Both the position numbers and the translations under genes were made by a program. A stretch of 33,270 nt of DNA, taken from NCBI GenBank assembly GCA_013314855.1, contig JABUEW010000038.1:1-33270 (forward strand), in the 5' to 3' direction. Of this stretch, positions 105 through 27,408 are shown piece by piece. Positions within the stretch are counted from its first letter, which is position 1; the number at the start of each line of letters is the position of its first letter. The notes under the pieces were generated by a model, which saw nothing but the letters and a program-made list of their open reading frames with translations, was not told where the DNA came from and made no database searches. This stretch comes from Bacillota bacterium (GTDB lineage Bacteria > Bacillota > Clostridia > Acetivibrionales > DUMC01).

Positions 105-132
105 TTGACATCTTCCAAAAATATTATATAAT
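105..132 (+). promoter_or_regulatory. strong sigma-A-type promoter for the 64-residue gene
   Basis: A perfect TTGACA (105-110) is followed after 16 bases by a perfect TATAAT (127-132). Transcription would begin near 139, leaving a leader of about 180 bases before the gene at 321. No riboswitch fold was recognised in that leader. Bases 1-104 show nothing that could be assigned. Confidence 0.7.
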
Positions 133-320: not shown

Positions 321-515
321 ATGAAAATATTTCAGAAAAGTGGTGTTATCCGGAATTCATTCTATCTTCCCGAGAATGAAATTCCCCGGGAAAAAATGAG
401 AATTATAGAGAAAGACTCAAAAATGATGCCTGACCTTTCTGCTAAATATGAGAAGAAATTTAAGGAAGCCGCAGAGTTTTTTTATAAGACCAGGTTAGAC
501 AGAGTGAATAAATAA
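321..515 (+). CDS. small basic hypothetical protein (64 aa)
   Basis: I do not recognise this protein. The ATG is preceded by a very good ribosome binding site (GAGGAGG, about 5 bases away) and the gene has its own near-consensus promoter at 105-132, so it is likely expressed. The product is hydrophilic and rich in Lys, Glu and Arg. It has no signal peptide, membrane segment or Cys cluster, and its second half (residues 40-64) could form a charged helix. A probable terminator (577-634) separates it from the metallopeptidase-like gene, but both are on the same strand and read-through is possible. It could be a small regulator or partner of the downstream pair, or unrelated. Confidence 0.6.
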   Translation: MKIFQKSGVIRNSFYLPENEIPREKMRIIEKDSKMMPDLSAKYEKKFKEAAEFFYKTRLDRVNK

Positions 516-707: not shown

Positions 708-3296
708 ATGATAAATATTGAAAGTTCTGATAAAGGAATTGAAAACGCAAAAGTTGAGGGTTTGCTGGTACACCTTTTCAAGAAGCTGATGCCAGGTGAT
801 GATGACGGTAATGACAGCCTATTCCAGTACAAAATGTGGTCAGCCTTTGACGGAATGATAATAAGTACAGTAACGGATTTGGAAAATGTGTACATGGGAA
901 ATGATTTGGTAATAGAAGGAGTAAAAGGCAATAAAGTAAATATTCACCAGGTTTACGAAGAGCAGCATTTATGCCTGTACGGTCAATATGTAGAAAATAA
1001 CGAAATAATACAACAGGGATACAGCATAAAGAATGGATCTTCAGACATTATAATGCCTTATATAGCATTGACTGAGGTAAAGCTTAATGATACATATATA
1101 GGACTCAAAGGGTTGGATTACTGCCAGAAAAAAATTGAAGAAATTCTTGAAAAGGGGTGCCTGAACCAAATCCCTGAACATAAAACTTTTTACTGCTTCA
1201 GGATATACCGCTCACTTGGATACGGCGACTTTATAATTATTTTTCGTTCACATTCGTATGACGGTATTTTTCAAGGAATTGAAAGGTTTCACAGGGAAGT
1301 AAGTAAACTCCATGAAAATTTTATTAATAGCACATCATCCATTGCCGGTATATCCCAAAAACACATGCTGTACATAAATAATACACAATGGGTTAAAGAC
1401 ATTCAGTCAAAAATGTCATGGACATATAATTTTCAAATCGGGGACACTTTTCAGCATAATAGGGATACATCAGTGCTTTTTAATAATCTGAACGCAATAC
1501 TCCTTGCAATAAAATCCAGGTTGCCGGGAACTCTTTATTTGCCTTTACAGAACCTTCTGTATAAATGCGAGCAACTATCACAGTCAGCTTTTGGAATTAC
1601 CCTTTTTCATGAGTTGCCCAACATCATTGCCACACTGTTTTTGACTCTCATGGAGTCAATGGGATGCAAGATTGATGTAAATTCTCTTATGAATGAACAT
1701 ATCCCCGAAAATATACTGGCAAACCTCAGAAATGATACAGGCACACAAACAAATATAGATTCGCTCATGCTCGCAATTCAACTGCTGTCAGAGTTTATAA
1801 CCGATCGCATACAGGCCGGCAGATTCCTCTCCGAAGTTCCTTTAACTAATTTAAAATTTAAAGAATCAATATCAAAGGTTATAATAGCCTATTCATCCCT
1901 CATAACCACAGTTATGAAAGAAATTCAACAGTGTTTGAGGAAACTTAATGGAACTTTAACAAAAACATCACAGGCCGAATCAGAACTCGTTGTTTTTCTT
2001 ACTCTGGGTATTTCAAACCAAATCAACTCCTTCCTCTTCTTCCCGGATTCATCACTCAATCCTCCACGCCGTCTTATATCAGTAAACTGTGATAACATGT
2101 CCCTCTTTCATATAAACTATGCAGTTTGCTTGATCCTTCACGAAATTGCACACTACATCCGCCCCCTGGACCGTAAAAAGCGCAATGAATATTTTCTTAA
2201 AATGGTATGCGGCCAGGTGACACAAAAAGTTATAAGTTTTATGTTCGGAAATACAAATGCAGTATCTGATGAATGTATGCAGTTGTTCAGCATAATAGTT
2301 GAACATATAGAAAATACCCTGTACGAAATTATATGGGTATCTCTTACTGAAGATGAAAAAAACTTAATTTTTATGGAATTCAAGGACAGACTGTACACAT
2401 TTATTACCAATTCACTTATCAGCATTGATTATGTGGGCTACATTAGTAAAAATAACGGTTTTCAGCCTGTTTTTTCGGAAAATAAACAATTGTGTATATG
2501 GAAATCAATGATGGATAATCTTTTTGAGAATATAGCAAATAAATTAAAACAACAGCTGACTTCAGAGCAGAATGGCGAATGTGAAGAAGCAGCCAGATAT
2601 CTTGCATCTTGTTGGCTTCATGAGGATACCGTTGAAAATCGCAACTGCTTCACTAAAGAATTTATACGCATTTTAGATTCGGGTGAAATGAAAGAAATTA
2701 TAACTGAAATTGCTGATCGAACAAAGGATTTTTTCTCAGAGGTAATAGCTGATGCATATATGTGCAGTCTTCTTGGACTGAGCAGGGACGAATATCTAAA
2801 TCTTGTATTTGATTTTTTCAGGTTCTCATATGGCATCCAGTTGAAAGATTTCTTTAAAAACAGCGATAGTTTCAATATTCATGATGCTATTACAATCCAG
2901 GCACGTGTATGGATGATTTTAACCGGATTTAACTGCCGACTGGACACAGACATAACCTGTAGTTCATGGCAAATGGTACAAAAACAAAATATAAAAGAAA
3001 AGGAAATTGCAGAATCTACATACAAGAAAGTTAAATGCTTCATTAAAGAAATCAGGGGAGAATATTTATTTAAGTACATGGATGAAGTGTTTGATTTCTG
3101 TAACAATGAATTATTGAGTGGAAAGTGTTATGAAATATGGAAATTGCGAGAAAATTACCGCAATTTCTGCTCGTCAGACAGTAATGATAAAATCAGCCGA
3201 CAAGTTCAATTTATTCAATATTACTGGTTAAAAGGACTTAACCAAATGATTAATGACCAAAATAAACAAAAGGGTGTTATATATGAGTACTGCTAA
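708..3296 (+). CDS. large protein with zinc-metallopeptidase signature (HEIAH + ExxxD), family unknown
   Basis: An 862-residue soluble protein whose family I do not recognise. Two features suggest a gluzincin-type zinc peptidase. A hydrophobic helix carries HEIAH at residues 478-482 (two His zinc ligands and the catalytic Glu). SEVIADAY at 677-684 supplies E678 with D682, the ExxxD arrangement of a third ligand. The 195-residue gap between them is unusually long. No signal peptide or transmembrane helix is evident, so a cytosolic site is likely. The N-terminal third has no motif I can name. Residues 165-190 look like an alternating beta-strand pattern. The start is supported by AAGGGG seven to eight bases upstream. 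The stop overlaps the FRG gene by 14 bases, so the two are very probably co-translated partners. Substrate and activity are unknown; the peptidase assignment is inference from motifs. Confidence 0.75.
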   Translation: MINIESSDKGIENAKVEGLLVHLFKKLMPGDDDGNDSLFQYKMWSAFDGMIISTVTDLENVYMGNDLVIEGVKGNKVNIHQVYEEQHLCLYGQYVENNEIIQQGYSIKNGSSDIIMPYIALTEVKLNDTYIGLKGLDYCQKKIEEILEKGCLNQIPEHKTFYCFRIYRSLGYGDFIIIFRSHSYDGIFQGIERFHREVSKLHENFINSTSSIAGISQKHMLYINNTQWVKDIQSKMSWTYNFQIGDTFQHNRDTSVLFNNLNAILLAIKSRLPGTLYLPLQNLLYKCEQLSQSAFGITLFHELPNIIATLFLTLMESMGCKIDVNSLMNEHIPENILANLRNDTGTQTNIDSLMLAIQLLSEFITDRIQAGRFLSEVPLTNLKFKESISKVIIAYSSLITTVMKEIQQCLRKLNGTLTKTSQAESELVVFLTLGISNQINSFLFFPDSSLNPPRRLISVNCDNMSLFHINYAVCLILHEIAHYIRPLDRKKRNEYFLKMVCGQVTQKVISFMFGNTNAVSDECMQLFSIIVEHIENTLYEIIWVSLTEDEKNLIFMEFKDRLYTFITNSLISIDYVGYISKNNGFQPVFSENKQLCIWKSMMDNLFENIANKLKQQLTSEQNGECEEAARYLASCWLHEDTVENRNCFTKEFIRILDSGEMKEIITEIADRTKDFFSEVIADAYMCSLLGLSRDEYLNLVFDFFRFSYGIQLKDFFKNSDSFNIHDAITIQARVWMILTGFNCRLDTDITCSSWQMVQKQNIKEKEIAESTYKKVKCFIKEIRGEYLFKYMDEVFDFCNNELLSGKCYEIWKLRENYRNFCSSDSNDKISRQVQFIQYYWLKGLNQMINDQNKQKGVIYEYC

Positions 3297-4182
3297 AAAT
3301 TATGTAACTAAATTCATTAGGAAACTAAGTGATTTTATTGAAGATATATCTACAGATATCGGAGATAACAAAGTCCTCTGGTTCAGAGGCCATACAAATA
3401 CCAGCTATAAGCTGTTACCAGGCATATACAGGAAATACTTAGAAACACTGGAAGTCAAGTCTGTCGAAAGTGAACTGCTTAGCCATTTTCAAGCACGTAA
3501 TTATCATCTGATTCCCGGAAGGCTGCCCCAAAATAAAATGGAATGGCTTTGCATGATGCAACATTATAACACTGCAACGCGTCTTCTTGACTGGACCGAG
3601 AATGCTTTCACGGCTTTCCTGTTTGCACTTGAGCCTTATTTTACAAAAAAACAGCTTGATCAAAGGATACTCCCGTGTGTATGGGTACTGAATCCTCTAA
3701 AATTAAACAAGATAAACGGTATAGATCATATACCAAATATGGCACTGCTGTCCCAGCTTATGCCGGCACAAGCTTCCGACCGATCAAACTTGCAGAAAAT
3801 AAAAGAAATATTCGTAGAAGGTATTGTTGAGTATAACACCGTACATACTCCTCTGGCCGTATTTTCCCCTTATAACAATGAAAGAATCAGAGCCCAATCA
3901 GGTGTATTTACACTATTTCCCTTTTTTAAGTGCAGCGAGATAAAAGAATTTAAGAATAACCATAATGCCAAAAATCGTACAAAATCCTACATAACAAATT
4001 ATTTTGAAAAGTTTGCCATGGAAGAACACCCGGAATGCGGTAAATTTCTTACAAAGTATGTCCTCCTGCATCCCTTTAAAATTTATACCGAACTAAAAAG
4101 GAACGGTTTCAAACAAAGTTCAATCTATCCTGAAATGCAAGTGTTGTCTGAAGAGATTGAAGAATATCTATTAAGAGTTTGA
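3283..4182 (+). CDS. FRG domain-containing protein
   Basis: A 299-residue FRG-domain protein. Numbered from the ATG at 3283, the diagnostic blocks occur in order: WFRGH at 33-37 with the following LLPGIYR, QHYNTATRLLDWT at 93-105, VWVLNP at 133-138, RIRAQSGVFT at 201-210, and a C-terminal IYPEM block near 281. This is essentially a complete single-domain protein with no membrane segment. An upstream in-frame ATG at 3253 lies deep inside the previous gene. The ATG at 3283 has AGGGTG just upstream and gives a 14-base overlap with the metallopeptidase-like gene, typical of translational coupling. FRG proteins are frequent in mobile and defence-rich regions, but their biochemical role is not settled to my knowledge. 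I infer a role shared with the peptidase-like partner. Confidence 0.85.
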   Translation: MSTAKNYVTKFIRKLSDFIEDISTDIGDNKVLWFRGHTNTSYKLLPGIYRKYLETLEVKSVESELLSHFQARNYHLIPGRLPQNKMEWLCMMQHYNTATRLLDWTENAFTAFLFALEPYFTKKQLDQRILPCVWVLNPLKLNKINGIDHIPNMALLSQLMPAQASDRSNLQKIKEIFVEGIVEYNTVHTPLAVFSPYNNERIRAQSGVFTLFPFFKCSEIKEFKNNHNAKNRTKSYITNYFEKFAMEEHPECGKFLTKYVLLHPFKIYTELKRNGFKQSSIYPEMQVLSEEIEEYLLRV

Positions 4183-7119: not shown

Positions 7120-8304
7120 ATGAACAACAGGGAAAGAGAAAATGCAACACTATCATTCATTAAGCCGGATGACAGGGGGTCTGTTGAAGAAACCTTTTAC
7201 CCATGGCCCCTTACCTTGGACAGGTGGAGAAAAGAAGGCTATTTAAACGGTTTGCCAACGAACATATTCAATGAATCCGGCCGCCAACCGCAAAATGCGG
7301 ACAAATATTTTGGTTGCATGATGACCGAAGGAGTTTATAAATACGAGCAATTCCTTGGATTTGACGGTATTAAAAGGGTTAGCTTTGGCTTGCCTTTTAG
7401 AAATTTCGGCACAACAATTATTGAGGAAACTGACGAGTATATAATAAGAAAAGATGATGACGGTTGGGAAAGGAAGTACTTCAAAAACAGCAAGCTTGTA
7501 GAAATTGTAAGGCCTGTAGTAACTTGTCCTGAGGACTGGTACAGGCTTAAAGAGCGCGCATTTGGTGAACTGGAAAAGTATTATACCGATGAAAACATAC
7601 AAAGCAAATACTCCCCTTTCCGGGAAGGGCACCAGAGGGGAGACTACTCAATAAGGATGAATATTACGGGGTTTTTTTGGATGCCGAGGACTCTCCTTGG
7701 AATTGAAGAGCACCTTTTTGCTTTCTACGATTACCCGGACATGATAAAAGATATGAATGAATTCTGCCTCGGTGTTTTTCTGGATAAGCTTGGTAAAATC
7801 TTGGATATCCTGCCTGCAGATGTCCTATATATAATGGAAGATTTAAGCGGCAGTAACGGTCCAATGCTGTCCCCGGAATTGTTTGATGAATTTATCGGTG
7901 CATATTATAAAAGGCTGGTGCCGTTTCTTAAAAGCAAAGGTGTGAGACATGTATTCGTAGATACTGACGGAAATTTTAACAAGCTGATACCTAATTTTAT
8001 TGAATCGGGAATTGAAGGTTTTTTGCCCATGGATGTGAATGCAGGCATGGACATAGTTGAGGTGAGAAAATACTTCCCAAAATTAAAGTTCATAGGAGCA
8101 TTCAACAAGCTGTCAATAGCATCCGGAAAAGAGGCAATCGACAGAGAGTTTGAAAGGCTTATGCCTGTTATAAGGCAGGGAGGATACATCCCGGGATGCG
8201 ACCACCAGGTGGCACCTTCTACCGCTTTTGAGGACTACAAGTATTTTATTATGCGTCTTAAGGAGGTTATGAAGGAGGCATGCAGTGATGTATCTATTAC
8301 ATAA
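7120..8304 (+). CDS. uroporphyrinogen decarboxylase (URO-D) superfamily protein
   Basis: A 394-residue TIM-barrel protein of the URO-D superfamily, which includes HemE and corrinoid methyltransferases such as MtaA and CmuA. C-terminal blocks are recognisable: HVFVDTDGN at 277-285, KFIGAFNKLSIASG at 323-336 and GYIPGCDHQVAPST at 355-368. The MtaA-type HxC...C zinc site is only partly present: H277 and C360 remain, but the residue two after H277 is Phe. It is therefore neither a clear HemE nor a clear methyltransferase. A GGGGG ribosome binding site precedes the ATG. It is alone on its strand, divergent from an AraC regulator with a sugar-sensor-like cupin. A role in sugar or aromatic metabolism is possible; the reaction is unknown. 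Confidence 0.85.
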   Translation: MNNRERENATLSFIKPDDRGSVEETFYPWPLTLDRWRKEGYLNGLPTNIFNESGRQPQNADKYFGCMMTEGVYKYEQFLGFDGIKRVSFGLPFRNFGTTIIEETDEYIIRKDDDGWERKYFKNSKLVEIVRPVVTCPEDWYRLKERAFGELEKYYTDENIQSKYSPFREGHQRGDYSIRMNITGFFWMPRTLLGIEEHLFAFYDYPDMIKDMNEFCLGVFLDKLGKILDILPADVLYIMEDLSGSNGPMLSPELFDEFIGAYYKRLVPFLKSKGVRHVFVDTDGNFNKLIPNFIESGIEGFLPMDVNAGMDIVEVRKYFPKLKFIGAFNKLSIASGKEAIDREFERLMPVIRQGGYIPGCDHQVAPSTAFEDYKYFIMRLKEVMKEACSDVSIT

Positions 8305-13877: not shown

Positions 13878-14855
13878 TTAAGACTTAGCATTAAGATACT
13901 CTCTTATAGCAATAACATTTTCAGGAGGAGTATTATAGGGAAGCACGCCGGTACCAACAACAAACTTATCATACCCGTTAATTTTTTGAAGCATGATTTC
14001 AAGCTGCCTTATTATCTCCTCCTTAGGTCCCCTTTCCACGAGTTTAGGGTCTATGTTTCCCCTTATGGTCATATTCCTTTCCTTTGCTTTTTCAACAAAA
14101 TATTTTATGTCTGCTTTGTAATCCGATATTAGCAATGTTGTGCCGGTTTCCAGCATATCGTCCAGAATTGTCAATGTATCTCCGCCGATGACAAGGGGGA
14201 CATACAATACTCCAAGATTCTTTATATGGGTTATAAGCTCCTTTTCATAAGGCGCTACAAAATTCCTATAAATTCCGGGAGATACCAAGGGAGGCGCAGC
14301 CCATGATTCAAATAAAGTTACTCCGAGCCCCCTTTTAATTATCTCTTTGCAATATTCTTTTTGGAAGGCCAAGATTTTTTCAAGTAAAAGATGCACTGTT
14401 TCTTCATTATCAATACAATCCGTTATAAGCTTTTCAAAACCCGTAAGTTCGGCACAAATAGAAAATGGTCCCGATATACCTATACTTACATTCACATAAC
14501 TCCCTATCCTCTTCTTTACTCTTTCAGCAGCATTAAGAACCATTCCAATACGGCCTTTTTCAGTAGAAAAGGTTATTGCTTCCATATGGTATTCTTCCGA
14601 AAATGGGTGAAATATTACTCCAGGTATGGAATTATCCTCATGAAACTTTACCTCGCATCCCAAAGCCTCAGCTTCTATGTTATATACATCAATTCCCACA
14701 GTAACAGCATCATGTTTATATAATAAATAAGACTGGACCTGGGCTTCTTCCAATAACTCTTCACTTAGCGCTGTTTCACTGGGCGTCCTGTTTATTATTC
14801 TAGCACTGTGTTCGAATATTGTCGGAATAAAAGGTATCTTTCTACTTGTATGCAC
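13878..14855 (-). CDS. URO-D superfamily protein, zinc site degenerate
   Basis: A 325-residue TIM-barrel protein of the URO-D superfamily, nearest in layout to MtaA/CmuA-type methyltransferases. Recognisable blocks are ISGPFSICAELTGFE (127-141), YVPLVIGGDT (218-227), RGNIDP (265-270) and VGTGVLPYNTPPEN (300-313). In MtaA the zinc is held by His-x-Cys and a distant Cys. Here the first site reads LVIGG and the second has Thr302 in place of Cys, so the known metal site is lost. The start is GTG with GGAGG seven bases upstream. It sits 24 bases after the response regulator gene and before GH2, within one operon, so it probably serves the glycan pathway. The reaction is unknown. Confidence 0.85.
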   Translation of the reverse strand: MHTSRKIPFIPTIFEHSARIINRTPSETALSEELLEEAQVQSYLLYKHDAVTVGIDVYNIEAEALGCEVKFHEDNSIPGVIFHPFSEEYHMEAITFSTEKGRIGMVLNAAERVKKRIGSYVNVSIGISGPFSICAELTGFEKLITDCIDNEETVHLLLEKILAFQKEYCKEIIKRGLGVTLFESWAAPPLVSPGIYRNFVAPYEKELITHIKNLGVLYVPLVIGGDTLTILDDMLETGTTLLISDYKADIKYFVEKAKERNMTIRGNIDPKLVERGPKEEIIRQLEIMLQKINGYDKFVVGTGVLPYNTPPENVIAIREYLNAKS

Positions 14856-26448: not shown

Positions 26449-26478
26449 GTTTTTGTAATAGTGAAAGGAGGGGCGAAT

Positions 26479-27408
26479 ATGACGCCAAAAGAAAGGGCAG
26501 TGGCAGCTCTAACACTAAATGTTCCGGATATGGTACCTACATTTGAATTAGAGTTTCAGCTTGAAGAAGAAATGTTCGGCAGACGGTTTTTGAGGCAGGA
26601 TGACCTTAAAGATACATCTCCAAAAGAGAGGGAAAAACTATTAAAAGAAAATGCCGAATATATGGTTGAAGTATATGAGAATCTTGAATATTCTATAATA
26701 CCTGTACACTATTTTGATTTTGAAGGTATAAAAGATACTGCCCGGTATATACGTAAATTAGTTGGTGACAAATTTATGCTTACAACCCATGGTGACGGCA
26801 CTTTTGCCCTACCCGACGGCAACGAAATGTATGATTTCGCCTATGCTATTGCAGATGACCCTGAAGGATTGAAAGCCAGGGCAGAAAAGATGGCAAGAGA
26901 TGCAATTGCACGGAATAAACAACTTGCAGAAGCAGGGTTCGACTGTCTCATTCTGTGTGCCGATTATTGCTACAATTCGGGTCCTTTTCTCTCGCCTGAA
27001 ATGTTCGGCGAATATATACAGCCTTACCTTTATAAAATAATTGATGAGGCAAGGAAAGATGGGCTTTACACAATTAAACATACTGACGGAAATATTATGC
27101 CAATCTTGGACCAATTAGTAGAATGCAGGCCTCACGCCATACATTCCCTTGATCCAATGGCGAAGGTAGATATAAAAGAGGTAAAGAGGCTGGTTGGAGG
27201 TAAAGTCTGTCTCTGTGGCAATGTTAACTGCGCCCTTATGCAGACAGGGACAGATGAAGAGGTTATCAAAAGTGCTGAATACTGCCTTACTTATGGTAAG
27301 CCCGGAGGAGGTTATATTTTTTCTACCAGTAATGTACCTTTCAAAGGATTGCCTCCCGAGAGGTATAAACTGATACTTGACGTTTGGAGAAGAATGCGCA
27401 AATATTAG
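26479..27408 (+). CDS. URO-D superfamily protein
   Basis: A 309-residue URO-D superfamily protein beginning with the typical MTPKERAVAAL. Other blocks: LILCADYCYNSGPFLSPEMF (158-177), YTIKHTDGNIMPIL (197-210), LCGNVNC (245-251) and GGGYIFSTSNVPFKGLPPERY (276-296). H201-x-D203 replaces the HxC of MtaA and the later Cys is absent, so a methylcobalamin-type zinc site is not conserved. The open frame extends to a GTG at 26461, but that codon is part of the sequence leading into the strong ribosome binding site AAAGGAGGGG. The ATG at 26479 is the clear start. It is divergent from the lyase gene and may share its operator. It converges on proA with only eight bases between stop codons. The reaction is unknown. 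Confidence 0.88.
   Translation: MTPKERAVAALTLNVPDMVPTFELEFQLEEEMFGRRFLRQDDLKDTSPKEREKLLKENAEYMVEVYENLEYSIIPVHYFDFEGIKDTARYIRKLVGDKFMLTTHGDGTFALPDGNEMYDFAYAIADDPEGLKARAEKMARDAIARNKQLAEAGFDCLILCADYCYNSGPFLSPEMFGEYIQPYLYKIIDEARKDGLYTIKHTDGNIMPILDQLVECRPHAIHSLDPMAKVDIKEVKRLVGGKVCLCGNVNCALMQTGTDEEVIKSAEYCLTYGKPGGGYIFSTSNVPFKGLPPERYKLILDVWRRMRKY

Follow-up and report, generated by a model that had tools for sequence, protein, structure and literature searches.

Do the two overlapping genes at one end of a clostridial contig form a functional unit, and if so, of what kind? The window analysed here is the complete contig (G000:C38; 33,270 bp) from a genome assembly of 4.4 Mb. The gene pair lies at the end of the contig, and its left flank is missing from the assembly. 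The features of the pair and of its counterpart in a second genome (G073) are as follows; coordinates are those of the window unless a locus is named.

105..132, + strand: consensus sigma-70-type promoter TTGACA-16-TATAAT (consensus match only)
321..515, + strand: ORF of 64 aa, nature unassigned, behind the consensus promoter
708..3296, + strand: large gene (P0001), 862-aa zincin-like protein of no known family; homologue at L186:2469-5894
1197..1253, + strand: N-terminal conserved segment FRIYRSLGYGDFIIIFRS (approximately residues 164-182); counterpart YRVYRSLSVGDFIIAIRS in the G073 homologue
2139..2186, + strand: HExxH motif HEIAHYIRPLDRKKRN with H478, E479, H482 and the basic stretch RKKRN, putatively metal-binding/catalytic; HETAHQFRYETRKKRN in the homologue
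2736..2765, + strand: SEVIADAYMC (residues 677-686) with E678 in ExxAD; REITADMFMC in the homologue
3268..3274, + strand: RBS-like AAAAGGG ahead of the FRG start, within the P0001 gene
3283..4182, + strand: FRG-domain gene (P0002), 299 aa, overlapping the upstream P0001 gene by 14 bases
3376..3639, + strand: FRG core according to Pfam (residues 32-119), including R35 G36, R50, H94, R100 and D103 W104
L186:2469-5894 and L186:5891-7003: G073 pair (1141-aa homologue and FRG gene), 4-bp overlap

The overlap of 14 bases, which an earlier note on this DNA had described, holds with ATG 3283 as the FRG start, the one preceded by AAAAGGG; an alternative in-frame ATG at 3253 would extend the overlap to 44 bases. 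In codon usage and G+C content, both genes stay within the limits set by the remaining genes of the window. The consensus promoter, upstream of both the 64-aa ORF and the pair, is a possible operon promoter. Relatives of the 64-aa ORF were sought in 58 genomes of the order and none was found. We rejected it as a part of the system; it probably lies outside the core module because it has no counterpart beside the G073 pair.

The downstream gene encodes a complete FRG-domain protein, as the earlier note had proposed. P0002 matches Pfam PF08867 with an E-value of 1.7e-19 (70.9 bits; cut-off 25) and carries all ten columns that are invariant in an alignment of 41 FRG members (R35, G36, P46, R50, H94, R100, D103, W104, F114 and Q205). 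Among the PADLOC models, 14 that belong to the phage-defence candidate PDC-S15 match it too (E 8e-39), and PF08867 and PDC-S15 are likewise matched by the FRG protein of G073. In the FRG tree, P0002 forms a long branch whose exact placement is unsure. An AlphaFold model computed from 41 sequences reached a pLDDT of 83 and a pTM of 0.84. Compared with the PDB by Foldseek, this model yielded no significant match (best E 0.37), the weak first matches being mainly toxins of the ART fold. A structural aligner returned a modest best match (Z 5.9, RMSD 3.1 Å over 115 residues); the top rows were nearly all ARTs, the structures of RES-Xre, ParT-ParS and NatRT among them, and we take the first 36 rows to be ART-fold proteins. 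An ART-like fold of P0002 is thus moderately supported by the predicted model. These matches lend independent, moderate support to the published placement of Frg in the ART superfamily; the same paper describes it as potentially an anti-viral effector, possibly with NADase activity (PMC9503650).

The large protein belongs to no recognised family, in agreement with the earlier description: nothing above noise was found for P0001 in Pfam, NCBIfam, PADLOC, PHROGs or the sequences of the PDB, where P0002 also has no relative, and no M78 or CapP profile of Pfam or PADLOC matched it. The predicted zinc-peptidase signature is present as HEIAH at H478/E479/H482. In 20,000 shuffles of P0001, a bare HExxH arose in 2.3% of cases, the extended zincin signature in 0.17%, and the signature together with a downstream ExxAD in 0.03%. 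A search of genome contigs with the pattern HE[hydrophobic][A/G]HY[hydrophobic][R/S]P gave 30 matches, none related to P0001 and many of them fumarase-like proteins from Acetobacter; those with HE[VI]AHY[LI]RP we take to be class I fumarases. No Pfam fumarase model matches P0001, and what the two have in common is a local motif only. Since HE[VI]AHY[LI]RP occurs in fumarase-like proteins as well, the motif alone proves nothing. As a separate observation, HE[VI]AHYLRP in fumarase-like proteins of Acetobacter and others (L077, L079 and L081 among them) is picked up falsely by scans for zinc-peptidase motifs. The earlier note had called for structure prediction of both proteins; this succeeded for P0002 as described, whereas the AlphaFold model of P0001, made from the single sequence without homologues, was unusable (pLDDT 34.6). 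Going by the secondary structure of that single-sequence model (pLDDT ∼35), the protein may be mostly helical, its N-terminus being of the alpha/beta type.

Evidence that the two genes belong together comes from a second genome. Of 391 genomes of the class, 36 proved to carry FRG genes, and we read ∼6 kb on each side of these genes where the contigs allowed. In G073, a member of a different family of the same class, an ORF of 1141 aa with an HExxH motif lies immediately upstream of an FRG gene and overlaps it by 4 bases. The similarity of its product to P0001 amounts to 30.9 bits in phmmer (best of 2000 target shuffles, 8.0 bits), and the alignment consists of three collinear segments covering P0001 residues 130-189, 375-501 and 596-704, which hold, respectively, the N-terminal conserved segment, the HExxH region and the ExxAD segment of each protein. 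Gene order and overlap (14 bp and 4 bp) are therefore kept in two genomes of different families, which bears out the earlier view that the genes had been kept together. Each of the two FRG proteins has the other as its best match, at 122 bits, the next match scoring 105 bits for P0002 and 67 bits for the G073 protein; because they are mutually best matches, both genes of the pair seem to have travelled together.

The catalytic-type motifs are more conserved than the rest of the large protein. Overall identity between P0001 and the homologue is ∼27%, compared with 10 of 16 identical positions in the HExxH region (HEIAHYIRPLDRKKRN versus HETAHQFRYETRKKRN) and 5 of 10 in SEVIADAYMC versus REITADMFMC. 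The zinc helix reads HEIAH in one protein and HETAH in the other, and HExAH...RKKRN together with ExxAD..MC is kept in both. Thus, between these two sequences, H478, E479, H482 and E678xxAD of P0001 correspond to H609, E610, H613 and E894xxAD in L186, the distance from the first histidine to the glutamate of ExxAD being 200 residues in P0001 and 285 in the homologue. E678 (E678-x-x-A681-D682) is a candidate third metal ligand. This conservation does more for the putative zinc signature than the bare motif.

The pair was found in two genomes among several hundred. Searches with the single P0001 sequence through samples of relatives, the order, the class and the phylum, and through viral contigs, plasmids, phages and genome contigs, revealed no homologue; weak matches at class level (E 0.004-0.7) were chance-like. 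The best-looking of these, an ORF of the same size in G035, was rejected as a homologue, as it showed 26% identity over 125 residues only and no HExxH. The G073 homologue was itself missed by the single-sequence search although G073 was among the relatives searched, and absence in such searches is therefore weak evidence. When 144 genomes of the class were searched with a profile built from the two large proteins, no third member emerged; nor did the 1141-aa protein have further relatives among 51 genomes of its own order. In viral contigs, neither profile and paired-FRG scans for the large protein nor a scan with a synthetic degenerate alignment found any. No homologue without an FRG neighbour was encountered: the sole homologue found (1/1) is FRG-coupled. 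As it was reached through FRG neighbourhoods, the constant company of an FRG gene is a two-for-two result with ascertainment bias, and the profile search of the 144 genomes is its sole, small, unbiased test. The rare and sporadic occurrence fits an accessory system.

The surroundings of the G073 pair resemble those that the earlier note had associated with FRG genes. Directly upstream of this pair, we recognised by eye its own promoter-like sequence (TTGACA-17-TATAAT) and an RBS-like GGGGAGGA. The contig carries mobility genes (tyrosine integrases, a MobA/MobL relaxase and a transposase-like gene), restriction genes (an AlwI-type REase and an HNH nuclease matching type II restriction enzymes), MazF/PemK, a DUF4411/PIN gene adjoining an HTH-M78 gene, and two PADLOC candidates, PDC-S18 and PDC-S01. 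The expected company of known defence genes on the same contig is thus seen for the G073 pair and not for the 33-kb window, in which, with the left flank of the pair missing, no known defence gene is present among the genes; the remaining ones are ordinary (sugar uptake, MATE transporters, URO-D-like genes). In another genome (G002), the orthologue of the MATE gene has neighbours different from those in the window, and the flank in the window therefore tells little. More generally, FRG genes do adjoin defence genes, in this class and elsewhere, and lie near AbiH and site-specific recombinases; several FRG genes of the class adjoin ordinary genes.

A coupled partner is not peculiar to this pair. 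In 9 of 36 FRG loci on viral contigs, some of them near-copies, a coupled gene of ∼350-365 aa follows downstream, usually with a 4-bp overlap, and all seven partners examined are GmrSD_N/DUF262 proteins. These loci are:

L036:1154-2958, L038, L039, L040, L041, L042, L044, L047 and L050: viral FRG gene with GmrSD_N/DUF262 gene

Judging by gene arrangement, FRG with GmrSD_N/DUF262 is a second recurrent FRG two-gene module, and the partners to which FRG genes can couple are therefore of two or more unrelated kinds. The viral pairs share with ours the translational coupling of FRG to a partner; they differ in that the partner is downstream, ∼355 aa long and of the GmrSD_N type, whereas here it is upstream and zincin-like. 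On a Hymenobacter plasmid (L119), an FRG gene is followed by a GmrSD_N/DUF262 gene that is adjacent but uncoupled.

What would such a pair do? Because it recurs in a distant relative within a mobile region rich in restriction enzymes, it resembles a small anti-phage or conflict system that has not been catalogued. The reading that we favour, with a probability of about 0.42, is a translationally coupled two-gene conflict module, probably anti-phage, in which a large zincin-containing sensor/regulator controls an FRG effector. The FRG protein would be an ART-fold enzyme that either uses up NAD+ or modifies some target. In the large protein, a gluzincin-type site (HExxH...ExxAD) would be combined with an alpha/beta segment at the N-terminus and a long helical body. 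Upon sensing of infection or damage the peptidase would act, in the simplest case by attacking the FRG protein or its restrainer, and the effector thus released would stop cell growth. The sequences show the coupling of the two genes, their recurrence as a pair, the homology of the large proteins, the conserved motifs and the neighbourhood; the enzyme activities and substrate, the control of the FRG protein by the peptidase, the trigger and an outcome in phage defence are what we infer. Against this reading stand the small number of instances (two), the lack of any known defence gene in the window and the modest ART match of the FRG model, and the sequence favours neither protein as the one that acts on the other. 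A more specific proposal, that very large zincins of a new family detect infection and use proteolysis to turn an ART-fold FRG effector on or off, the whole being an uncatalogued defence system with a protease-gated NAD+/ADP-ribose effector, is tentative.

Gating of a defence or mobile-element response by a metallopeptidase is known from CapP-CapH and ImmA/IrrE, and it is the mechanism proposed here for P0001. In contrast to those regulators, P0001 matches no M78 or CapP model and is far larger, and its partner is enzyme-like rather than a repressor.

A reversal of these roles is unlikely. The FRG protein would then make an ADP-ribose-derived signal, and the large protein, as the receptor of that signal, would double as the effector by cleaving host or phage proteins, in the manner of signalling defence systems whose effectors are proteases. 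RES and Frg have been listed among NAD+-processing signal-generating enzymes (PMC9503650), the separate conserved N-terminal segment of P0001 could bind a ligand, and the coupling to DUF262/GmrSD_N in viral loci indicates that FRG can serve different partners. However, no ligand-binding domain was recognised in the large protein, and other FRG genes apparently stand alone, which suits an effector better.

We consider it rather unlikely that the pair is a toxin and its antidote, with the large protein checking an FRG toxin by binding or degradation, so that a cell deprived of the pair comes to harm (addiction or abortive infection). Toxin-antitoxin pairs commonly place the restraining gene ahead of an overlapping toxin gene. 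Genes of the MazF, PIN and M78 types lie near the G073 pair, and the ART-fold toxins of RES-Xre, ParT-ParS and NatRT, to which the predicted fold of P0002 bears a modest resemblance, likewise have a dedicated partner gene. Yet no sequence similarity of these toxins to the FRG protein was found. At 862-1141 aa, the partner here is no small antitoxin and far exceeds the size expected of an antidote, and simple binding needs no conserved metallopeptidase-type site. FRG genes without such a partner also exist.

We regard it as quite improbable that the two genes form an accessory cassette whose function lies elsewhere, for instance in cell-envelope or mobile-element biology. HExxH and FRG parts would in that case act outside defence, in line with the ordinary character of the other genes of the window and of the genes beside several FRG genes of the class; the location of the G073 pair within a region of integrase, relaxase and restriction genes and the cataloguing of the FRG family as a phage-defence candidate argue against it. 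An incidental HExxH in a large protein that is a helical scaffold and no metallopeptidase, an idea to which the fumarase-like Acetobacter matches and the failed structure prediction of P0001 lend something, is very improbable given that HExAH...RKKRN and the downstream ExxAD are kept at 27% identity and that the full signature arises so rarely in shuffles.

With respect to the favoured sensor-effector module, FRG itself is already catalogued as the PADLOC candidate PDC-S15, a single-gene candidate, we presume from its code. The new part is the coupling of FRG to a large zincin-like protein that matches no PADLOC model. In the open-access literature, which leaves subscription journals mostly outside, we found no paper that treats FRG with a metallopeptidase, or FRG with DUF262, as a system. 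FRG proteins are widespread and are defence candidates, and no account of their control was found in the same literature; a partner that is dedicated and conserved and carries a metallopeptidase-type site offers a concrete handle on that control. The large proteins also add a protein family for which no database model exists.

Several further arrangements were observed in passing. At L175:2073-6343, an FRG gene lies 98 bp downstream of a gene for a 1215-aa SIR2 protein with an HsdS gene nearby; the SIR2 protein can be aligned from end to end with the Dsr2 model, at 529 bits, which is under the model cut-off of 1400. At L177:2011-6380, 2 bp separate a 433-aa FRG gene from the gene that follows it, which encodes HsdR, a type I restriction subunit. 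The FRG gene at L188:3614-8895 has a cytosine methylase region on one side and, on the other, an AIPR-family protein that weakly resembles MzaE. On the conjugative Klebsiella plasmid p535-1 (L120), an FRG gene is near AbiH and CBASS genes, and FRG genes similar to it are present on many enterobacterial plasmids. Finally, the 33-kb contig contains three genes of the URO-D family (window positions 7120-8304, 13878-14855 and 26461-27408), accompanied by sugar-uptake and aldehyde dehydrogenase genes; these are perhaps methyltransferase-type paralogues.
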